Of a stretch of 64,000 nt of DNA, positions 33,501 through 42,946 are shown one piece after another; position 1 is the stretch's first letter; the number at the start of each line of letters is the position of its first letter. Source of the DNA: Maricaulis maris MCS10 (lineage in GTDB: Bacteria; Pseudomonadota; Alphaproteobacteria; Caulobacterales; Maricaulaceae); the NCBI RefSeq assembly GCF_000014745.1, contig NC_008347.1:3178001-3242000 (forward strand), read 5' to 3'. A program made the position numbers and the translations under genes. Below the pieces are notes generated by a model. The model saw nothing but the letters and a program-made list of their open reading frames with translations, ran no database searches and was not told where the DNA came from.

Positions 33501-34376
33501 ATGAAAATCAGCTTCCTCATCCGCGCCGTCAGCGCCATTGCCCTGGCGATTCTGGCCGGTCTGGCGGGATGCGCCACCGGCAACATGACCGGCTGGAGCG
33601 TTCCCAGGCGATCCCTAGAGGATCAGGTCGACCTGCTTCGCGAGCATGTTGAAATCCGGTTGCCCGACAATCAGGACACAGCTGTACCAGCGGTGATAAT
33701 GCTGCACGGCTGCGGTGGGCTGCGTGACGTCCAGGAGGCCTATGCGGCTGATTTACTGGATGCTGGCTATGCTGTGCTTCTGGTCGATTCCAATCGGGCC
33801 CGCGAGATCGACCGCTTCGGTGCCATGACCCAAGTCTGCACCGCGCTTCGTCTGTGGGGTCAGGAACGGGCGGCCGACATTCCCGCCGCGATAGCGCTGG
33901 CCCGCGAAAGCTCCGCGATTGATGCAGACCGGCTGGCCCTGATCGGCTGGAGCCATGGCGGTTGGACTGTGTTGGAAGCCCTCGACTACGCCGCGGAGGG
34001 GCGTTCAGCGCCTGCACTCCTGCCAACGCCTGCCGATCCGGCTTCGACACCCTTGTCGGGGGTACGGGCAGCAATCGCCCTGTATCCCTATTGCGGATTT
34101 CCGGTCCGCGCCGACGGCCGGGGCTTCCCGCGAACCATCCCGCTTCACATCATCCTGGCCGAACGCGACCTGGTCGCCCCGCCTGGCGATTGTGTTCGTC
34201 TATTCGACCGCTCCGAAGCGTCCGGGGTTGCGGTTGATCATGAAATCTGGCCTGGCCAGACCCACGCCTTCGACGAACCCAACGGTCCGCCCGACCCGCG
34301 CATACAATATGATGCGGACGCGGCTGATAGAGCACGCGCCCGCATATTGGTCTGGCTGGAAGAGGCGTTCCCCTAG
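33501..34376 (+). CDS. Dienelactone hydrolase-like lipoprotein
   Basis: A 291-residue alpha/beta hydrolase with a lipoprotein signal (AIALAILAGLAGC). The core shows VIMLHGCGGLRDVQEAYA, the nucleophile elbow IGWSHGG with Ser, a late Asp in ILAERDLVAPPG and the catalytic His in GQTHAFD. The dienelactone hydrolase family nucleophile is usually Cys; Ser here suggests an esterase-like activity. The stop overlaps the convergent dehydrogenase gene by 4 bp. Confidence 0.85.
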   Translation: MKISFLIRAVSAIALAILAGLAGCATGNMTGWSVPRRSLEDQVDLLREHVEIRLPDNQDTAVPAVIMLHGCGGLRDVQEAYAADLLDAGYAVLLVDSNRAREIDRFGAMTQVCTALRLWGQERAADIPAAIALARESSAIDADRLALIGWSHGGWTVLEALDYAAEGRSAPALLPTPADPASTPLSGVRAAIALYPYCGFPVRADGRGFPRTIPLHIILAERDLVAPPGDCVRLFDRSEASGVAVDHEIWPGQTHAFDEPNGPPDPRIQYDADAADRARARILVWLEEAFP

Positions 34377-37300
34377 CCGGGTTGGACGACTGACGCCATT
34401 TCGCCGAGCTGGGTCGAGGCGATGGCCAGCTTGGACAAGCTCCACCCGCCTGACTCGTCCAGCTGGCGCTGGACCGAGTCCACACGACCGGCCTCTTCTT
34501 CATTGATCGTGTTCCAGGCTTCGACCAGCGCGTCCGCCCAGTCGCGGGACGGATTTTCCACACCTGATGCGAGGGAACCACCCGCCTGCAGCGCGAAACG
34601 CATTGCTGATCCGGTGAAGGCCTGCTGGCTGGCATAGAAGTCTTCCATCAGGCGGCGGACGGCAAGCCGGTCCCAATGCTGCTCTGACGACACTTCCTGA
34701 CCAAGCCCGCGCAGACGGTCGAACTTGAATCGGGCACCGACGGCGTGATATATGTAAGCTGTTGATGCTAATGGCCAATCTGACTCCATGGCCATATCGA
34801 TAACGTCTGTCGAGGAGGTCAGAGGCCGCAATTCGGCGACTGCAAGAGCGATGTCTTCCGGGGCGCCGGCTTCAACGAAACGCTTCTGTCGCGACTTCAC
34901 ACCCCGGCGTTCATGGGTCGAGATGATTTCGTGGACCATCGAGCGCAGAGACTGGACCCCGGGCTGATAGGCTCCGATCACGTCACCAATCGCGTCCGGT
35001 TTCGCCGATTTCTTGTTCCGACCGCGACGCACAAGCCAATAGGTCTGACGGCGAAGAAGACGGATGATTTCCTCGTGCAAGGCTACCTGGACTGACGCCG
35101 GAGCCTTGTTGTCCAGCGCATTGATCGCATCTGTGATCTCGGCAAATCCGAAGATCTGCCGTCCGGCTTCGAAGGCCCGGGCAATGGCCGGCACTGTTGC
35201 TGTCGTTGAGTCGATCGCCCGGTGAATGAAGGTCGGGCCGCCCAGGTTGATCATCTCATTGGCGAGCACCGTCGAAATGATCTCGCGCTTCAGGCGATGC
35301 CCTTCCATGGCCTCGCCAAAGTCGTGCAGGCCTTTCGGGAAATAGTTGACCAGCATGGATTTGAAGTGCGGGTCATCAGGGACATCCGAGGCGACCAGCT
35401 GATCGAAGAGGGTGATCTTGGCATAGGAGGTCAGCACGGCCAGTTCCGGTCGCGTAAGACCCTTTTCCCGCGCCTTCAAGCCACGAACCTGTTCAACCGA
35501 TGGCAGGCCTTCGACCTCCCGATCAAGCTGCCCCAGCTCTTCAAGCCGGGCCATGAAACGTTCATGGGCGTCCAGGTCGGCCGCTGAGGTATGCTCAGCC
35601 AGCGACAGGGCCAGGGACTGGTCGTAATTGTGCCGGAGAACATGGGTCGCGACGTCGCTCGTCATGGATTCCAGCAGTTTGTCCCGGGCCTTCCGGCTCA
35701 TGTCGCCATTGCGAACCATCGGACGCAACAGGATCTTGATATTGACCTCATGATCCGAACTGTCGACGCCTGCGGAATTGTCGATGAAGTCCGCATTGGC
35801 GCGACCACCATGCTGGCCGAATTCGATACGCGCTGCCTGGGTGAAACCCAGATTGGCCCCTTCGCCTATCACCTTGGCCCGGACCTCATTGGCGTTGACG
35901 CGCAGGCCGTCATTGGTCTTGTCGCCGACTTCCCAGTGCTGTTCGGCAGTCGCCTTCACATAGGTGCCGATTCCACCGAACCAGAGCAGTTCGACATCCG
36001 CCTTCAAAAGCGCATGGATCAGCTCCAACGGACTTGCCGTGTCCTTTTCAAGACCGGTCAGGGCCTTGATCTCGGCCGAAAGCGGGATCGACTTCGCCGA
36101 TCGCGCGAAAATGCCGCCACCCTTTGAAATCAGCGATTTGTCGTAATCTTGCCAGGATGTACGTGGCAGGTCGAACAAGCGCTTGCGCTCATTCCACATC
36201 GTCTCGCAATCGCCCGGATCGGGGTCGATGAAAATGTCGCGATGATCGAAGGCCGCCACGAGCCGGATCTGTCTGGACAACAGCATGCCATTGCCGAACA
36301 CATCGCCGGACATGTCACCGACGCCGATAACCGAGAAGGCTTCGGTCTGGATGTCCTTGCCCATTTCGCGGAAGTGCCGCTTGACGGATTCCCAAGCGCC
36401 GCGCGCCGTAATGCCCATTTTCTTGTGGTCGTAACCCGCCGAGCCGCCAGAAGCGAAGGCATCGCCAAGCCAGAAATCGAACTCGTCCGTCGCCAGGCCA
36501 TTGGCGGTGTCGGAGAAGGTCGCAGTGCCCTTGTCCGCCGCGACCACCAGATACGGATCATCATCATCCCAGCATTCAGTGGCCGCCGGATGGATCACGG
36601 CGTCGTCGACAATATTGTCGGTCAGGTCCAGCAAACCACGAATGAAGGTCTTGTAGGCTTCGCGCCCGGCCTCGAACACCTCCTCGCGGGAGCCGTTGCG
36701 TGGCAGGGATTTCGGGTAGAATCCGCCCTTTGAACCCACCGGAACAATGACCGCATTCTTGACCTGTTGCGCCTTGACCAGGCCCAGCACCTCGGTGCGG
36801 AAATCATCGCGCCTGTCGGACCAGCGCAAACCGCCACGTGCGACCGGTCCAAAGCGCAGATGGACGCCCTCCACGTCCGGGGACCACACAAAGATTTCCC
36901 GGAAGGGCTTGGGCAGCGGCAATTCCTCAAGCAGCTCGCTGGCGATCTTGATCGCGATGCGAGGCTTGGGCTGGCCGTCTTCGCCTGTCTGGTAGAAATT
37001 GGTCCGCAGGGTCGCCTCGATCAGGTGGAAAATCCTGCGCAGGGCTCGGTCGTGATCCAGACTGGCGACGTCATCAAGTTGTTTGCGAAGCGTCTCGGAC
37101 ACGTCCCAAACAGCATCGGAACGCACTTTCTTGTCGTCGGTAAAGGCCGGGTCGAATTTGACCCGGGCCAGTTCAAGCAATCCCTTGGCTATATCGGGAC
37201 AGGCAGCAAGAGCCTCTTCCTGGATCGCCTGGGATGGATCAAGGCCGGTCTGCTGGCGGTAGCGCGCGCAAGTGCGCAGAAAGGCAGCTTCACGCCAGGT

Positions 37301-39301
37301 GACACCGATCTCGACGATCAGGCGATTGAAGCCATCATCCTCGGCACGCCGATCGGCAATTGCCAGCATCGCCTCTTCGAGATTGGGCGCAAGTTCCGCA
37401 AGGTCCCGGTCCTTGAGGGTGTCCGACTTCATCTCGAAGTCATGGATATGGGCCCGGTCGAACGGCTCACCATTGGCGCCGCGGCGATCGACCGGAAACC
37501 CGGTCTCCTGCACGACATAAAGGCCGAGGTTTTCCAGGACAGGCATGACCCGCGACAGTGAGACCGGTTTGCCGATCCGGTAGATTTTCAGACGCAAGTC
37601 ATCGGGGCCGTCGTCGGCTTCGCGGTAAACACGCACGGCAACACGGTCCGAGCCGGACAGAGATTCCAGCTTGGTGACATCAGCCAGCGCTTCCTCGGGG
37701 TCATAGAGCTCCCGATAGCCGGCCTTGAATGCATCCTGATAGGCCCCCATGCGCAGGCGGATCGCCTCGGGCGCATTGCGCCTGACATGGGTCTCCAGAT
37801 CGTCTTCCCAGGTGCGGGCCAGCCGGGCGACCTTGCGCTCGAGCTCCCCTGTATCCGGTTCCGGGTGATCGAACGGGTTCAGACCGATGATGTAATGAAC
37901 CCGCGCCAGCGAGCTGTCGCCAAACTGCGGATAGAAGGCCGAAAGCCGCCCGCCGAAGGCGTCACGGATCAATTCGCCCGCCTGCTCGCGCACTTTCGAA
38001 TTATAGCGGTCGCGTGGGACAAACAGCAGCGCCGACACGAAGCGGTCGAACTGGTCGCGGCGGATGAACAGTTTTGTCCGCGGCCGGTCATAGAGGTGGA
38101 GAATGCCGAGGCACATCTCCAGCAGATCGGTCTCATCCGTCTGGAACAGCTCGTCACGCGGAAAATTCTCGACCGTGTTTCGCAATTTTTTGGCGGAGTG
38201 CGTACCCGGCGTCTTGCCGGCCCGCTCCAGAACACGGCGCACCTTGCGCCGGATCAGCGGCACTGCACTGGCACTCTGGTCGTAGGCCTCGGCGGTGAAC
38301 AGGCCGACAAAACGGGCCTCGCCTATCACGGCACCATCTTCGCGATAACGTTTGACACCAATATAATCCATGTAGACGCGGCGATGGACGCGCGACTTCA
38401 TGTTGGCCTTGGCGACGATGATCGGGCTCGGTTCGCGCAGAAAGGTTTCGATCGCCGGCGTCAGCACCGCCGGTTCGGATCCTTTTCTGAGAACATGGCG
38501 TTCCGGATCCCGCAGGACCCCGCGGCCGGATTCGGGCCTGACACGGGGGTGGCGCTGCGCCATCGAGCCGTCTTCGTCGACCTCGAAATCATAGACCCGG
38601 CAACCAAGGAAGGCGAAATGGTCGTCACGAAGCCAGCGCAGAAATTCAAGGGATTCCGCTAGTTCATCGGGCGCGGCATGGGTTCGGGCGCCAGCGAGAT
38701 GCGCGATCGCATCATCCATCTGCGCGCGCATGTCGGTCCAGTCTTCGACCGCGACGCGTACGTCGTCGAGGGTCGCTGTGACACCTTCGATCAAGGTCCG
38801 GCGGGACAATTCATCAAGCGGTGGCAGATGAACCTGGATCATGGATTCGGCAAGGCAGCGCCCCGCCTCGCCAACCCGGGCGCCGTCATTGTCGCGACGG
38901 ACCTGCACGATGGGGTGGAACATCGCTATGATGTCATGCCCCTGGGCACCAACTTCGCCCATCACGGAATCGACAATAAACGGCCGATCTCGGCCGATGA
39001 TTTCCAGGACATCCCTCGGCAGCTCGGTGCCGTCGGAACGGGTCGCCGGTCGCATCCGCACAAGGATGTCGTCGCCGGGCCGCTTGTCGCCGAAGCGCCA
39101 GAAATCCATGCTCAGCGCAGCGAGATCGTCCGGGCCAACCCGTTCGAGGTCCTCGGCGAGGGCATCGTCATAGATTTGTGAGAAGAATGAGTTTCCCGGA
39201 TCACCGCATTCGGTGCCGAAAGCCTCGAGCCAGCGCGAACGCGCTGCCTCCATGAAATCTGCGCGACTGTAAGCGTGCGCGACTCCGACGACCGCCCCCA
39301 T
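34373..39301 (-). CDS. gdhZ: Large NAD-dependent glutamate dehydrogenase
   Basis: A 1642-residue glutamate dehydrogenase of the 180 kDa class (GdhB/GdhZ), which deaminates glutamate to 2-oxoglutarate. The long N-terminal regulatory half contains ACT-like segments (for example PFIVDSVMGEVGAQGHDIIAMFHPIV). The catalytic centre is GPVARGGLRWSDRRDDFRTEVLGLVKAQQVKNAVIVPVGSKGGF, followed by the NAD domain with GVGDMSGDVFGNGML. ATG 39301 follows AGGGAG. In Caulobacter the homologue GdhZ also moderates division; KidO is not adjacent here. It is the longest gene in the window. Confidence 0.96.
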   Translation of the reverse strand: MGAVVGVAHAYSRADFMEAARSRWLEAFGTECGDPGNSFFSQIYDDALAEDLERVGPDDLAALSMDFWRFGDKRPGDDILVRMRPATRSDGTELPRDVLEIIGRDRPFIVDSVMGEVGAQGHDIIAMFHPIVQVRRDNDGARVGEAGRCLAESMIQVHLPPLDELSRRTLIEGVTATLDDVRVAVEDWTDMRAQMDDAIAHLAGARTHAAPDELAESLEFLRWLRDDHFAFLGCRVYDFEVDEDGSMAQRHPRVRPESGRGVLRDPERHVLRKGSEPAVLTPAIETFLREPSPIIVAKANMKSRVHRRVYMDYIGVKRYREDGAVIGEARFVGLFTAEAYDQSASAVPLIRRKVRRVLERAGKTPGTHSAKKLRNTVENFPRDELFQTDETDLLEMCLGILHLYDRPRTKLFIRRDQFDRFVSALLFVPRDRYNSKVREQAGELIRDAFGGRLSAFYPQFGDSSLARVHYIIGLNPFDHPEPDTGELERKVARLARTWEDDLETHVRRNAPEAIRLRMGAYQDAFKAGYRELYDPEEALADVTKLESLSGSDRVAVRVYREADDGPDDLRLKIYRIGKPVSLSRVMPVLENLGLYVVQETGFPVDRRGANGEPFDRAHIHDFEMKSDTLKDRDLAELAPNLEEAMLAIADRRAEDDGFNRLIVEIGVTWREAAFLRTCARYRQQTGLDPSQAIQEEALAACPDIAKGLLELARVKFDPAFTDDKKVRSDAVWDVSETLRKQLDDVASLDHDRALRRIFHLIEATLRTNFYQTGEDGQPKPRIAIKIASELLEELPLPKPFREIFVWSPDVEGVHLRFGPVARGGLRWSDRRDDFRTEVLGLVKAQQVKNAVIVPVGSKGGFYPKSLPRNGSREEVFEAGREAYKTFIRGLLDLTDNIVDDAVIHPAATECWDDDDPYLVVAADKGTATFSDTANGLATDEFDFWLGDAFASGGSAGYDHKKMGITARGAWESVKRHFREMGKDIQTEAFSVIGVGDMSGDVFGNGMLLSRQIRLVAAFDHRDIFIDPDPGDCETMWNERKRLFDLPRTSWQDYDKSLISKGGGIFARSAKSIPLSAEIKALTGLEKDTASPLELIHALLKADVELLWFGGIGTYVKATAEQHWEVGDKTNDGLRVNANEVRAKVIGEGANLGFTQAARIEFGQHGGRANADFIDNSAGVDSSDHEVNIKILLRPMVRNGDMSRKARDKLLESMTSDVATHVLRHNYDQSLALSLAEHTSAADLDAHERFMARLEELGQLDREVEGLPSVEQVRGLKAREKGLTRPELAVLTSYAKITLFDQLVASDVPDDPHFKSMLVNYFPKGLHDFGEAMEGHRLKREIISTVLANEMINLGGPTFIHRAIDSTTATVPAIARAFEAGRQIFGFAEITDAINALDNKAPASVQVALHEEIIRLLRRQTYWLVRRGRNKKSAKPDAIGDVIGAYQPGVQSLRSMVHEIISTHERRGVKSRQKRFVEAGAPEDIALAVAELRPLTSSTDVIDMAMESDWPLASTAYIYHAVGARFKFDRLRGLGQEVSSEQHWDRLAVRRLMEDFYASQQAFTGSAMRFALQAGGSLASGVENPSRDWADALVEAWNTINEEEAGRVDSVQRQLDESGGWSLSKLAIASTQLGEMASVVQPG

Positions 39302-39714
39302 GGTGGCGCTCCCTGGACTGTTATGTTTATGACCCGACCCTAGTCCTGTTTGAAATGCAAGCAACCCGCCTACGCCGTTGAAAACGCAAACGTGCCATTC
39401 TTTTTCTCAAGCCTTGAAAAGGTAGCGATAACGGCGCCGCCGGGTAGGGACAGGGGAACCCGGCGGCGCCTGGCAGGCCTCATAGGCAGGCTGGGGGGAC
39501 GCACATTGAGGCCCGTTCTTCGCAAGCGGGACCGACCGTGGCGGTCATGGGGGGAGACCGCGAGAGCCGTTTGCCCGCTACGACTCTCATGTAGAAAGCC
39601 GACGGCGAATTTAAAGGCCGGATCGATCGAATTTCTTATGAATTCGCATCCACGGCGCCATTATCACCAGGATGTGATCGACCGTATTCTGCGGTAATCT
39701 GAGAGCTGGGCCGG
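39302..39714. other. Structured intergenic region upstream of the glutamate dehydrogenase
   Basis: This 413 bp gap separates two minus-strand genes. It holds a 13 bp perfect inverted repeat (39433-39445/39458-39470), smaller hairpins at 39534-39546, 39562-39588 and 39628-39646, and a 19-codon micro-ORF starting at 39638 with no clear support. The dehydrogenase promoter is expected within the first 130 bp above 39301. I see no convincing protein gene. Confidence 0.5.
39433..39470. repeat. 13 bp perfect inverted repeat
   Basis: GGCGCCGCCGGGT at 39433-39445 pairs fully with ACCCGGCGGCGCC at 39458-39470 around a 12 nt loop. No T-run follows on either strand, so it is not a standard terminator. 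It could end the isochorismatase operon, act in the dehydrogenase leader or belong to an unannotated RNA. Confidence 0.7.
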
Positions 39715-40257
39715 TCAGACCAGCGGCGCCTCGACGGGCCAGCTCCGCGTCAGCGACTGCCAGTCGATTACCGGCGCCATGCGGGCTACCAGGTCGAACG
39801 CCATGGCGCGGGTCTCGGTGACATCGCGTGGCTCTACGGCCAGCGCGCCCACGGCTTCGGGCACCACAGTCACAGCCTTGTCCCGATTGGCGTCGTCAAA
39901 CACGGTCGCGAGGATGGAGAATGGAGCCGAAAAACCGACCAGCAGGGCTGTGGAACCGGCGCTTCGTGCCAGGACCTGATGAAAGTACGGATCAGAGAAG
40001 GCAGACAGGCCTCTTCGCTGGAAGACGGCCTCCTGTGCATTTGGACGCAATCCATCGATGGGCGCTCGACCGGCCTGCGGTCCCTCCCCCTGAAACTGGC
40101 AATGGCAGACCCGCCAACCGGATTGGCGAGCGTGGCGGAGCAATTCCTTGATCCGGTCGATGACAATACTGTTTTCCGGATCAATGCGGCCATTGGGCCC
40201 GGTCACCTGGTCGCGCTGGCAATCGAGCAGGATCAGGCAGGGGTCAGCGAAGCTCAT
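39715..40257 (-). CDS. Isochorismatase-fold protein with degenerate catalytic triad
   Basis: A 180-residue protein of the isochorismatase/cysteine hydrolase fold. The N-terminal Asp is present (CLILLDCQRDQV), but the Lys position reads Arg (FQRRGLSAF). The position of the nucleophilic Cys reads Ser in GFSAPFSILATVFDDA, so classical amidase chemistry is unlikely. The residue assignment is by eye. It overlaps the GNAT gene by ATGA and is the last gene of a three-gene operon. Confidence 0.78.
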   Translation of the reverse strand: MSFADPCLILLDCQRDQVTGPNGRIDPENSIVIDRIKELLRHARQSGWRVCHCQFQGEGPQAGRAPIDGLRPNAQEAVFQRRGLSAFSDPYFHQVLARSAGSTALLVGFSAPFSILATVFDDANRDKAVTVVPEAVGALAVEPRDVTETRAMAFDLVARMAPVIDWQSLTRSWPVEAPLV

Positions 40258-40856
40258 GCGGCCTCCTCGGGCTTGCGTTCACCACCTTCCTCTTGCATGC
40301 GGGCGAGCGAGAGGTCAAACGGGCCGGGCCGGTCCCAGTCGCCATCCGGACGGATGACCACCATCGGATCGGCATCCATGGTGATAGCGTTGGCCGGCGG
40401 CACGAGGTCGCGCTCGATCTCGACATATTTATAGTCCGAGAAGCCGAACTCCGGGCGCTCGGCGCGAATCCGGAAGCCATGTGTGCGCCAGTATTTGACC
40501 CGGTTGAGCTGGGCATGACCCAGCATTTTGCGGTACCCGCGACGGGCGGAATAGCGTTGCGCTTCCTGCATGAGCACGCGCATCACCCCGTAGCGCCTGA
40601 ACTGCCGCAACACGGCGGCACGCTCGACCTTCGCGAAATCGGCAAAGAAGCGCAGTCGCAGGACGCCAACGGGCTCGGCACCACGCCAGGCGATCAAATG
40701 CGCCGCGCCGACCAGGTCATTGCCATCATACTCTTCCGAGTAAGGCGCAAACTGTTCACCCAGATAGATCACGCCGCGCAAGGTCATGGCCATCACAACC
40801 TGGTCGAGGTTGCGCGCGATGGTCACTTTGAGACTGTCGGGTATCGCGTTTTTCAT
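40254..40856 (-). CDS. GNAT family N-acyltransferase
   Basis: A 200-residue GNAT protein. The N-terminal LRGVIYLGEQFAPYSEEYDGNDLVGAAHLIAW followed by GVLRLRFFADFAKVERAAVLRQFRRYGVMRVLMQEA shows the beta4 strand and the R/Q-x-x-G-like acyl-CoA loop (RQFRRYG). The layout is also that of acyl-transferring autoinducer-synthase-like GNATs. The acceptor is unknown. It overlaps both neighbours by ATGA, so the three proteins are probably made in similar amounts. Confidence 0.85.
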   Translation of the reverse strand: MKNAIPDSLKVTIARNLDQVVMAMTLRGVIYLGEQFAPYSEEYDGNDLVGAAHLIAWRGAEPVGVLRLRFFADFAKVERAAVLRQFRRYGVMRVLMQEAQRYSARRGYRKMLGHAQLNRVKYWRTHGFRIRAERPEFGFSDYKYVEIERDLVPPANAITMDADPMVVIRPDGDWDRPGPFDLSLARMQEEGGERKPEEAA

Positions 40857-41491
40857 GAACCACCCTCCCATTTGCCGAGAACGGTCCGCTTCAACAGCAT
40901 GTCGCCCAGCTTCTGCGGAAAGCCGGTACTGCCGTAGAGCTCCGGGGCACCGTCAGGATAGGCACAGATTTCGAAATTCAGACGTCTCATCAATGCCTTG
41001 CCTTCCGTTGTCCGCGCCCGGGCATAGACCCGGACGTCGGAATAGAAACCGCGCCACCCGACCAGGAGCGCTCGCAGGGCCGCCGCCTGCGCGTGCGGCG
41101 TGCGCCCGGCCAGACCCCAAGACAGGAGGGCTGCCGCCCGCTCTTCCAGTCCGCACACCCACTCACGACGGGCATTGGCGAACCCAAATTCACCTGCAAG
41201 GAGGGCAGAGACACCGGATTCGCTAAGCGGGATTGAGGCAACGAAACCGTCAGGCCTGCCATTCCAACGACGCATGTGCAGCGATCTCCGGGTCCATTCC
41301 TGGACGCGTCCGATGTCGGCCGCACCCGCGATCTCACCCTCGATCAACTCATTGGCAAGTGCGTGGAATTCATCGATCTCGGACAATTGGACAGGCTTGA
41401 AATCCAAGGACCCAAAGGCCTTGTCGAGACGTTCAAGAGGAAACTTGAAGCCTGTATCCAAAGAGCTGGCCCTCAGCTCATCACTCACCAT
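40853..41491 (-). CDS. GNAT-like protein, first gene of the CtrA-linked operon
   Basis: A 212-residue protein I cannot name with certainty. The C-terminal part, with VGWRGFYSDVRVYARARTTEGKALMRRLNFE, resembles the end of a GNAT fold (beta-alpha with an Asn/Tyr after a Leu-rich helix), and DGFVASIPLSESGVSALLAGEFG resembles its central strands. There is no signal peptide. GGAG lies 8 bp before the ATG. A 5-codon ORF (MAERA) ends in TAATG, overlapping this start. The downstream GNAT gene overlaps by ATGA. Confidence 0.75.
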   Translation of the reverse strand: MVSDELRASSLDTGFKFPLERLDKAFGSLDFKPVQLSEIDEFHALANELIEGEIAGAADIGRVQEWTRRSLHMRRWNGRPDGFVASIPLSESGVSALLAGEFGFANARREWVCGLEERAAALLSWGLAGRTPHAQAAALRALLVGWRGFYSDVRVYARARTTEGKALMRRLNFEICAYPDGAPELYGSTGFPQKLGDMLLKRTVLGKWEGGS

Positions 41492-41511
41492 TACGCACGC
41501 TCCGCCATGTA

Positions 41512-41528
41512 GTTAATTCTTCGTTAAC
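41512..41528. promoter_or_regulatory. Palindromic CtrA-type box in a divergent promoter
   Basis: GTTAA-TTCTTCG-TTAAC is a perfect match to the CtrA consensus TTAA-N7-TTAAC on both strands. It lies in the 71 bp between the GNAT-like operon (start 41491, minus) and the LysR gene (start 41563, plus). It could therefore control either or both. CtrA itself is not in the window. Confidence 0.7.
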
Positions 41529-41562
41529 ACCGGCGCGCTATCAGTACTTCTGCGAAGTTGGC

Positions 41563-42552
41563 ATGGGGGGTATTCTCGGTTTGGATAACGATCTGCGGCG
41601 CAATGTTTTTGATTGGGACGATCTGCAGATCTTTCACGCAGTCGCCACCACAGGCTCGATGAGCGCGGCCGCGACTGTCCTCGGCTGCCAGCAGTCGACC
41701 GTGTCGAAACGGATGCGGCAGCTCGAAAGTCGCCTGTCAGCACAGTTGATTGAGCGAAGGGCTGATGGCGTTGTGCTGACCAGGGCCGGCTCCGCGGCGC
41801 TGGACTATGCGGTCACCATGCAACGGTCCGCGCAGCGCCTCGAGACCGAACTCGCCGGCATGGACCGCAGCCTGGCCGGTCAGGTCTCCTTGCGGGTACC
41901 GGATGGCCTGGCGACCTACTGGTTGGCACGACATATCCCGGAGTTTCAACGGGTTAACCCGGAGATTGTGCTGAAGATAATCAATGATCGATCGGCGGCA
42001 GCCAGCGACACGGCCGCAGCGCTCAGCCTGACCTTCACACCCGACAAGGCGATGGATACCGAAGCACGCGCCCTTGGCAGTGTGCACTACATGCCGATGG
42101 CGTCCCGGGATTTCATTGCCACCTATGGCGCACCACGGTCACTGGAAGACGTCCTTACACTGCGCTTTTTGCGACTGGAACAATACGACCCGTCCCTCCA
42201 CCTCTGGCAGCGAAAAGCCACGGCAACTGATGAGGTTGTAAGATATTCGTTCACAGCGGACATCAGTTCGGTGCTATTTGAAACCATACGCCATGGGGGT
42301 GGAATCGCCATGGCACCAACCTACCTGGCGTCCTTGTACCCGGATGAACTGGTTGTTCTTGACTATGACTTTCATCAAGACGTCCGCTTCTGGCTCAAGA
42401 ATTCACCGGGAAGCCTGGGAATAACCCGAATAAAGTGCGTTGCTGACTGGATTGCCGAACTGTTCAACCGTAGACTCCATCCTTGGTTCCGCGAAGAGTT
42501 TTGCCATCCAAGTGAGTTTAGCGACGTGGAAGTCATCAAACCACAGACGTGA
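41563..42552 (+). CDS. LysR-family transcriptional regulator
   Basis: A 329-residue LTTR. The helix-turn-helix is in DLQIFHAVATTGSMSAAATVLGCQQSTVSKRMRQLESRL (about residues 19-57), and the effector domain covers residues 100-310. It is divergent from the GNAT-isochorismatase operon, the usual arrangement for a LysR regulator and its target. It is followed after 7 bp by an XRE regulator on the same strand. The first 15 or so residues may not be translated, as LysR proteins usually start closer to the HTH. Confidence 0.9.
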   Translation: MGGILGLDNDLRRNVFDWDDLQIFHAVATTGSMSAAATVLGCQQSTVSKRMRQLESRLSAQLIERRADGVVLTRAGSAALDYAVTMQRSAQRLETELAGMDRSLAGQVSLRVPDGLATYWLARHIPEFQRVNPEIVLKIINDRSAAASDTAAALSLTFTPDKAMDTEARALGSVHYMPMASRDFIATYGAPRSLEDVLTLRFLRLEQYDPSLHLWQRKATATDEVVRYSFTADISSVLFETIRHGGGIAMAPTYLASLYPDELVVLDYDFHQDVRFWLKNSPGSLGITRIKCVADWIAELFNRRLHPWFREEFCHPSEFSDVEVIKPQT

Positions 42553-42559
42553 GGACGCC

Positions 42560-42946
42560 ATGAGTGCAAGAGGCCCGACCAGTATTGACCAGCACGTAGG
42601 GGCCCGTCTGCGCCTGCGGCGCAGCCTTCTGGAAATGAGTCAGTCAGAACTGGGCGAAAAGCTCGGTGTGACCTTCCAGCAAGTCCAGAAATACGAACGT
42701 GGCACCAACCGTATTGGCGCCAGCCGCCTGTTCAACGTCGCCAAGGTGACGGAAGTTCCGGTGTCCTATTTCTTCGAAGGCCTCGAAGAAGACGGGTCAT
42801 CCGAGCTCAAGGGCGGCGACTCCGACACCTTGTATGACTTCATTGCCAGCCCTGATGGTCTGGCTCTGGCCTCGGCTTTTGCCGGTATCAAGGATCAGAC
42901 TGTCCGTCGCCGGGTCATAGACCTGCTGCGCTCGCTCGCTGATTGA
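42560..42946 (+). CDS. XRE-family (Cro/CI-type) transcriptional regulator
   Basis: A 128-residue regulator with an N-terminal HTH_3 domain (HVGARLRLRRSLLEMSQSELGEKLGVTFQQVQKYERGTNRIG, about residues 12-55). Its C-terminal helical domain ends TVRRRVIDLLRSLAD. This subtype is common and often multi-copy in alphaproteobacteria. GAGG at 42551-42554 is 5 bp before the ATG. It is probably co-transcribed with the LysR gene; a GC hairpin follows. Confidence 0.92.
   Translation: MSARGPTSIDQHVGARLRLRRSLLEMSQSELGEKLGVTFQQVQKYERGTNRIGASRLFNVAKVTEVPVSYFFEGLEEDGSSELKGGDSDTLYDFIASPDGLALASAFAGIKDQTVRRRVIDLLRSLAD

Follow-up and report, generated by a model that had tools for sequence, protein, structure and literature searches.

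A conserved alphaproteobacterial gene unit combining a predicted split GNAT pair, a cysteine-less isochorismatase-fold protein and a divergent LysR-type regulator

Tandem GNATs such as VipF, the clavulanate-pathway tandem GNAT and NpuN pair two GNAT folds, one half of which lacks a P-loop. A similar pairing is predicted for a locus of Maricaulis maris MCS10, which lies within the 64,000-nucleotide stretch analyzed here (the window; NC_008347.1, positions 3,178,001 to 3,242,000) in a genome of 3,368,780 bp on one contig. Unlike the tandem GNATs, the locus does not encode a single tandem polypeptide but two separate overlapping genes, GNAT1 and GNAT2, accompanied by a dedicated LysR-type regulator and an isochorismatase-fold partner (ISO), and neither GNAT2 nor any GNAT model shows detectable sequence similarity to GNAT1. 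The LysR-type gene resembles other LysR genes with a divergent operon in its orientation, in the short shared intergenic region and in having been lost along with the operon in two genomes, and differs from them in its target, here a paired GNAT. The features, in window coordinates, are as follows.

40853..41491, minus strand: GNAT1, 212 aa; predicted GNAT fold, no family model, no P-loop motif
40254..40856, minus strand: GNAT2, 200 aa; a YjcF/SACOL1063/ElaA-type GNAT that ends in a tail RP[DE]GxWDxPG and whose P-loop, RRYGVM, is non-canonical
39715..40257, minus strand: ISO, 180 aa; isochorismatase fold with the Asp retained, Lys changed to Arg and Cys to Ser
41563..42552, plus strand: LysR-type regulator facing away from the trio, to which it is judged dedicated
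41492..41562, no strand: promoter/operator region shared by GNAT1 and LysR, 71 bp
41513..41527, plus strand: TTAA-N7-TTAA inside GTTAA-N7-TTAAC, a CtrA-like box or LysR-type T-N11-A dyad
42560..42946, plus strand: XRE regulator, a neighbor judged outside the unit

An earlier reading made from the window sequence alone (the sequence-only reading) had described these coordinates and strands, the ATGA overlaps at both the GNAT1-GNAT2 and GNAT2-ISO junctions, the divergent LysR gene and the XRE gene starting 7 bp past the LysR stop (at 42560), all of which were confirmed. The three genes of the trio all start with ATG. Pfam assigned HTH_1 and LysR_substrate domains to the LysR protein and HTH_3 to the XRE protein. 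An NAD-glutamate dehydrogenase gene (34373-39364) lies downstream of ISO on the same strand. The GNAT2 protein shares 93% identity with its M. maris DSM 4734 counterpart. No family name was found here for the unit, and literature searches limited to open-licence papers listed no paper on this locus.

Linkage of the trio and the LysR gene in relatives had been set beforehand as a test of the sequence-only reading, and the genes proved to keep their order rather than being scattered. The 61 genomes surveyed, own included, comprise 30 with a strong GNAT2 match (E ≤1e-30) and 2 with weak matches only. GNAT1 directly adjoined GNAT2 in all 30 (27 by single sequence; G045, G049, and G056 by profile), ISO adjoined it in 24, and a divergent LysR gene was present in 29, G053 being the exception. 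The same order is kept in Phenylobacterium and Bradyrhizobium. A scan of named genomes, with one genome per species, yielded 542 stretches matching the pattern, 406 of which encode a GNAT2 relative; the named loci are the best 80 of these 406, are thus chosen by similarity, and are rich in Maricaulis, Phenylobacterium, and Bradyrhizobium. In these 80 loci, an adjacency script detected GNAT1 in 75, ISO and a divergent LysR in 71 each, and the complete set of four genes in 63. Over-long open frames caused the script to overlook GNAT1 in L157, L160, L161, and L191; including these brings GNAT1 to 79/80 and all four genes to 66/80. Nine loci were without LysR, six of which end near the gene, while L183, L194, and L200 truly have none; L151 is truncated by a contig end. 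A 4-bp overlap to the nearest start of the next gene was found at 28 of 72 GNAT1-GNAT2 junctions and 32 of 71 GNAT2-ISO junctions. Since it is conserved across families, the arrangement is beyond chance, and GNAT1-GNAT2-ISO together with LysR is a true conserved unit.

The boundary of the unit is marked by natural loss. Of the 19 genomes of the same genus, own included, 17 retain the unit, and the trio is absent from two, G002 and G005. The corresponding place in these genomes (L315 and L316) is bordered on one side by the XRE gene, at 92% identity, and on the other by glutamate dehydrogenase and its RNA, with no match to GNAT1, GNAT2, or ISO better than E 1 in either locus. C-terminal fragments of LysR persist beside XRE, covering residues 198-323 in two pieces in L315 (E 7e-18) and residues 281-322 in L316 (E 6e-4). 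LysR has thus decayed together with the trio while XRE stayed intact, so LysR belongs to the unit and XRE does not. Membership of XRE, which the sequence-only reading had entertained, was therefore rejected; a relative of XRE occurs in just 29 of the 80 loci.

GNAT1 had been called GNAT-like from its sequence, and structure prediction, the other test set for the sequence-only reading, upheld this. The window protein matched no Pfam or NCBIfam model at E up to 1, yet the unit it belongs to is spread through alphaproteobacteria. An AlphaFold2 model built from a 42-row alignment (A4) reached a mean predicted local distance difference test score (pLDDT) of 89.7, with strands and helices in the order seen in GNATs. 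Foldseek returned 94 PDB rows at E ≤0.001, and among the best 50 of these 94, all were titled as acetyltransferases or their complexes except one GNAT-like decarboxylase. The top structural match among those listed was Ard1, at E 3.8e-6 and a template modelling (TM) score of 0.50 by query. GNAT-model matches appeared in only 2 of the 42 rows of A4, with the E-values of the two fused proteins described below. At the expected place, the P-loop motif is lacking both from the window GNAT1 and from 38 of the 40 stand-alone GNAT1 rows. GNAT1 thus has a predicted GNAT fold and no sequence family. Its profile does not align with that of GNAT2 (hhalign probability, 0.2%), and the two are therefore not recent duplicates. 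GNAT1 is probably a structural or regulatory partner of GNAT2.

For GNAT2, membership of the GNAT superfamily is supported by Acetyltransf_1 at E 3.6e-8, Acetyltransf_1, _7, and _10 above cut-off in the window protein, and Acetyltransf_1 matched in 19 of 19 rows. The acyl-CoA loop that the sequence-only reading had ascribed to it was overstated, as RRYGVM departs from the canonical [QR]xxGx[GA]. Eleven residues are invariant in the 19 rows (R27, E41, E42, D44, D47, H53, R67, R69, K76, E78, and R79). The best solved relatives by GNAT2 profile are YjcF, SACOL1063, PA0115, and ElaA. In addition to the profile likeness to YjcF, SACOL1063, and ElaA, most invariant residues are common with YjcF and SACOL1063 by eye, and the fold of the GNAT2 half of a fused protein (L184) is nearest to these two, at TM scores by target of 0.92 and 0.94, respectively. 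GNAT2 differs from YjcF, SACOL1063, and ElaA in its non-canonical P-loop, in a GND following the EExD motif, and in the extra conserved C-terminal tail RP[DE]GxWDxPG. GNAT2 is probably the catalytic subunit.

GNAT1 and GNAT2 are naturally fused into a single open frame in 7 of the 80 loci (L147, L171, L183, L184, L194, L200, and L207). In the tree of 99 GNAT2 rows, the fused label requires four changes, at least two of which are forced by well supported branches; two forced changes could equal one fusion and one split. Both halves of the fused L184 model were predicted as GNATs (pLDDT, 85.9). This model aligned with VipF (7wx7) over 359 columns at E 9.7e-8, but with a root mean square deviation of 16.7, so that the halves are placed differently or uncertainly. 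In three metagenome-assembled genomes (MAGs) with the fused form (L183, L194, and L200), it is adjoined by condensation-domain, AMP-ligase, and exporter genes; a phosphopantetheinyl transferase gene is present in L183 and L194 and a carrier protein gene in L183 only. These neighbors were assigned by Pfam in L183 and by clustering in L194 and L200.

ISO has the isochorismatase superfamily domain (PF00857; E 3.9e-28) and, like that superfamily, the Asp of the catalytic triad. When aligned to 3hu5, it retains this Asp and has Arg at the Lys position and Ser at the Cys position, leaving the Asp-Lys-Cys triad incomplete. The loss of the nucleophilic cysteine seen in the sequence-only reading holds in every relative examined. 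In 71 ISO relatives, the Asp position is occupied by D in 66, N in 4, and E in 1; the Lys position by R in 46, H in 20, and K in 5, and thus replaced in 66; and the Cys position by S in 32, T in 30, A in 5, and D in 4, never by C, which sets them apart from the superfamily. A Cys is found one position later in 10 of the 71. A role as a cysteine hydrolase was rejected on account of the incomplete triad. Solved relatives without this Cys exist, with Ser in 4h17 and 8cib and Gly in 7l6j (alignments by eye), so its loss is in itself nothing unusual; what is of interest is a whole Cys-less clade tied to GNATs.

Building directly on the conserved unit, the predicted and assigned folds, the natural GNAT1-GNAT2 fusions, and the joint loss with LysR, we favor, with a probability of roughly one half, a split tandem GNAT under LysR control, partnered by a Cys-less isochorismatase-fold protein, that would N-acylate an amino-acid-like metabolite. 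GNAT1 and GNAT2 would form a two-subunit "split tandem" GNAT also where they are unfused, as in the window. GNAT2 would do the chemistry, taking an acyl group from acyl-CoA or a different thioester and attaching it to the metabolite's amine, and the P-loop-less GNAT1, probably non-catalytic, would shape the complex. ISO may bind or hydrolyze the same metabolite through non-cysteine chemistry, and LysR would read the substrate or product and drive the divergent operon through the shared 71-bp region. The proposal of the sequence-only reading that the three proteins share work on one small molecule is plausible. Amino-acid and peptide genes lie near the unit in several lineages: the NAD-glutamate dehydrogenase gene in the window, an asparaginase-like gene in 8 of the 80 loci (by clustering; L119 has a similar gene, identified as Asparaginase_2), and ABC permeases, which are of the binding-protein-dependent kind (BPD_transp_1) in L247 and L251 and of the branched-chain amino-acid kind in L245 and L250. 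Such neighbors point to amino acids or peptides as substrates. With a GNAT pair that is split or fused in nature, a Cys-less isochorismatase-fold clade, and a dedicated LysR, one metabolite search in a single laboratory strain could give functions to all of these.

Several observations weigh against the split tandem N-acyltransferase. The P-loop is canonical in just 5 of 99 GNAT2 sequences and non-canonical in 94, window included (this set omits L248 and also L242, which was considered to represent the L183 region), so GNAT2 might rely on an atypical donor or have no catalytic role. A P-loop-like motif occurs in two of the 40 stand-alone GNAT1 rows (L149 and L193), and the NpuN tandem GNAT is reported to have its P-loop in the N-terminal half (PMC13060382). 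The fused L184 model has a predicted TM score of 0.54, which leaves the relative placing of its halves uncertain. ISO is absent beside GNAT2 in 6 of the 30 genomes and in 8 of the 80 loci with room for it; the LysR relative of G053 is unlinked, and G028 has a LysR relative but no trio. In wider families, the GNAT1 position is taken by a CTP_transf-like protein (L244-L246, L251, and L252), and GNAT1 is therefore not essential to GNAT2. The substrate, donor, and ligand are themselves inferred.

These wider families came from searches at E ≤1e-20, which detected the GNAT2 family in 27 of the 385 genomes sampled from the class and, in a phylum sample, in 15 of 398 genomes, all 15 in the same class. 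The own genome and G037 had been read previously among the 27; 20 neighborhoods were taken from 19 others, and G212, G219, G224, G337, G397, and G435 were left out of this reading. The L248 GNAT2, overlooked by the gene caller, was placed from the class-wide search. A divergent LysR-type gene flanks GNAT2 or its operon in 12 of the 20 neighborhoods (L243-L249, L251, L252, and L254-L256), the LysR-like protein being short (185 aa) in L254 and L255. The protein that replaces GNAT1 has about 420-460 aa and a membrane-like N-terminus (by eye), lies between LysR and GNAT2, and scored above cut-off for the CTP_transf_like (nucleotidyltransferase) domain in the four cases tested (L251 excepted). A link to nicotinamide/NAD metabolism, suggested by this nucleotidyltransferase-like partner and the nicotinamidase-like fold elsewhere, was set aside as too thin. 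Four relatives were found on plasmids. In each of the three that are annotated, a LysR gene lies no more than 0.3 kb away, divergent in one; GNAT2 itself is annotated as "GNAT family" in one and "hypothetical" in one, and the third has a gene called on the opposite strand. The fourth carries no annotation at the GNAT2 place.

The GNAT pair could instead modify a protein N-terminus or Lys, since Ard1/Naa50-type N-terminal acetyltransferases are numerous among the structural neighbors of GNAT1. However, these matches are weak, as the Ard1 values given above indicate, GNAT1 has no P-loop, and the likely catalytic GNAT2 is closest to YjcF, SACOL1063, and ElaA; the dedicated LysR and the isochorismatase fold point toward metabolism, and we regard a protein target as unlikely. 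Detoxification, in which LysR would sense an amine toxin or antibiotic and induce an inactivating acetyltransferase, is similarly improbable. LysR with a divergent GNAT is a usual layout of detoxification genes, and the condensation-domain, AMP-ligase, and exporter genes near the fused form in the three MAGs would allow for self-protection. Nevertheless, the unit sits in fixed contexts on the chromosome (purine and rnd-like genes in Bradyrhizobium and glutamate dehydrogenase in Maricaulis; names by eye), and retention in 17 of the 19 same-genus genomes suggests metabolism rather than an acquired resistance trait.

A further alternative is a signal synthase with its receptor, in which GNAT2, with GNAT1, would make an acylated signal received by LysR or, in one family, by a LuxR-like protein. 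A regulator is the most constant neighbor of GNAT2, being of the LysR type in 12 of the 20 neighborhoods, even where GNAT1 is replaced, and close by in 3 of 3 annotated plasmid relatives. The degenerate P-loop of the 94 sequences would also fit, as would a faint similarity to FeeM, seen in 5 of 19 GNAT2 rows with a best E of 0.0011, and to Autoind_synth, seen in 2 of the 19 with a best E of 0.02. These scores are weak, FeeM falling below cut-off in each protein where both are shown, and neither model was listed for the window GNAT2; identification of GNAT2 as LuxI (an acyl-homoserine lactone synthase) or FeeM (an N-acyl amino acid synthase) was accordingly rejected. Most of the conserved GNAT2 residues, moreover, are common with YjcF and SACOL1063 (by eye), and a LysR gene adjoining an enzyme operon is ordinary catabolic control. 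We consider signaling quite unlikely. The more specific idea that GNAT2 and its constant regulator, LysR in most of the families read and a LuxR-like protein in f109, form a distinct alphaproteobacterial signal-making circuit is very doubtful; in such a circuit, a GNAT not of the LuxI family, in many cases paired with a GNAT-fold protein lacking a P-loop, would make an acylated amino-acid-like signal sensed by the dedicated regulator.

The LuxR-like protein belongs to family f109 (L260:5650-7139 and L261:5841-7111), in which a LuxR-like regulator gene comes directly after a GNAT2-like gene, overlapping it by 4 bp in both loci. The pair is adjacent in 10 of 10 genomes holding both genes (14 searched), at 11 places; G164 has an extra lone GNAT match, G794 has the GNAT alone, and G796 has the regulator alone. 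The LuxR-like protein scores below Pfam cut-offs, and its best PDB match has E 0.006, which counts against the signaling alternative; a synthase/receptor pair is a possibility for this family.

The TTAA-N7-TTAA site at 41513-41527 in the shared region is the sole such site in the window, where 0.02 would be expected, and it fits both the CtrA consensus (TTAA-N7-TTAA) and the LysR-type T-N11-A dyad. In 16 loci of the Maricaulis clade besides the window, the site is exact in six (L132, L133, L134, L137, L140, and L162), has one mismatch in three (L135, L136, and L138), and is absent in seven (L141-L147); in 55 further loci, it is exact in 1 (L211) and has one mismatch in 7. Genome-wide, the motif shows no enrichment, with 11 sites versus 14 for a reversed control. 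The cell-cycle link proposed by the sequence-only reading is thus left with one CtrA-like site in the shared region, retained in part of a single genus, and CtrA control as a general feature was rejected since the site is not conserved. The same bases form a LysR-type dyad, and a unit under cell-cycle control by CtrA is an unproven and very unlikely reading.

Just upstream of the LysR start lies a conserved block (41546-41566) with the core CCAACTT on the GNAT1 strand. This core was found in the window and in 11 of 13 relatives compared (not in L146 and L147), even where TTAA-N7-TTAA is absent (L141 and L145), and the block is a possible LysR operator.

Finally, a candidate RNA (window 39425-39535, minus strand) was noted between ISO and the NAD-glutamate dehydrogenase gene. 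It is predicted to form two hairpins with C-rich loops, the first containing six C's. It matched no Rfam family at cut-off, with sub-threshold likeness to 6C, sX13, and CcsR1. Its C-rich loop resembles that of GsrN as described in PMC5869019. Across 25 aligned sequences the structure is preserved, 12 of its 25 pairs vary on both sides, and 98.6% of cells are paired compared to 36-50% in slid controls, in an alignment that was fitted to the model. A glutamate dehydrogenase match was present in 9 of 12 RNA regions fetched, on the opposite strand in L324, and none was found in L322, L323, and L325. The RNA occurs as one match per genome in 35 of the 61 genomes, own included, and also in G002 and G005, which are without the GNAT unit.

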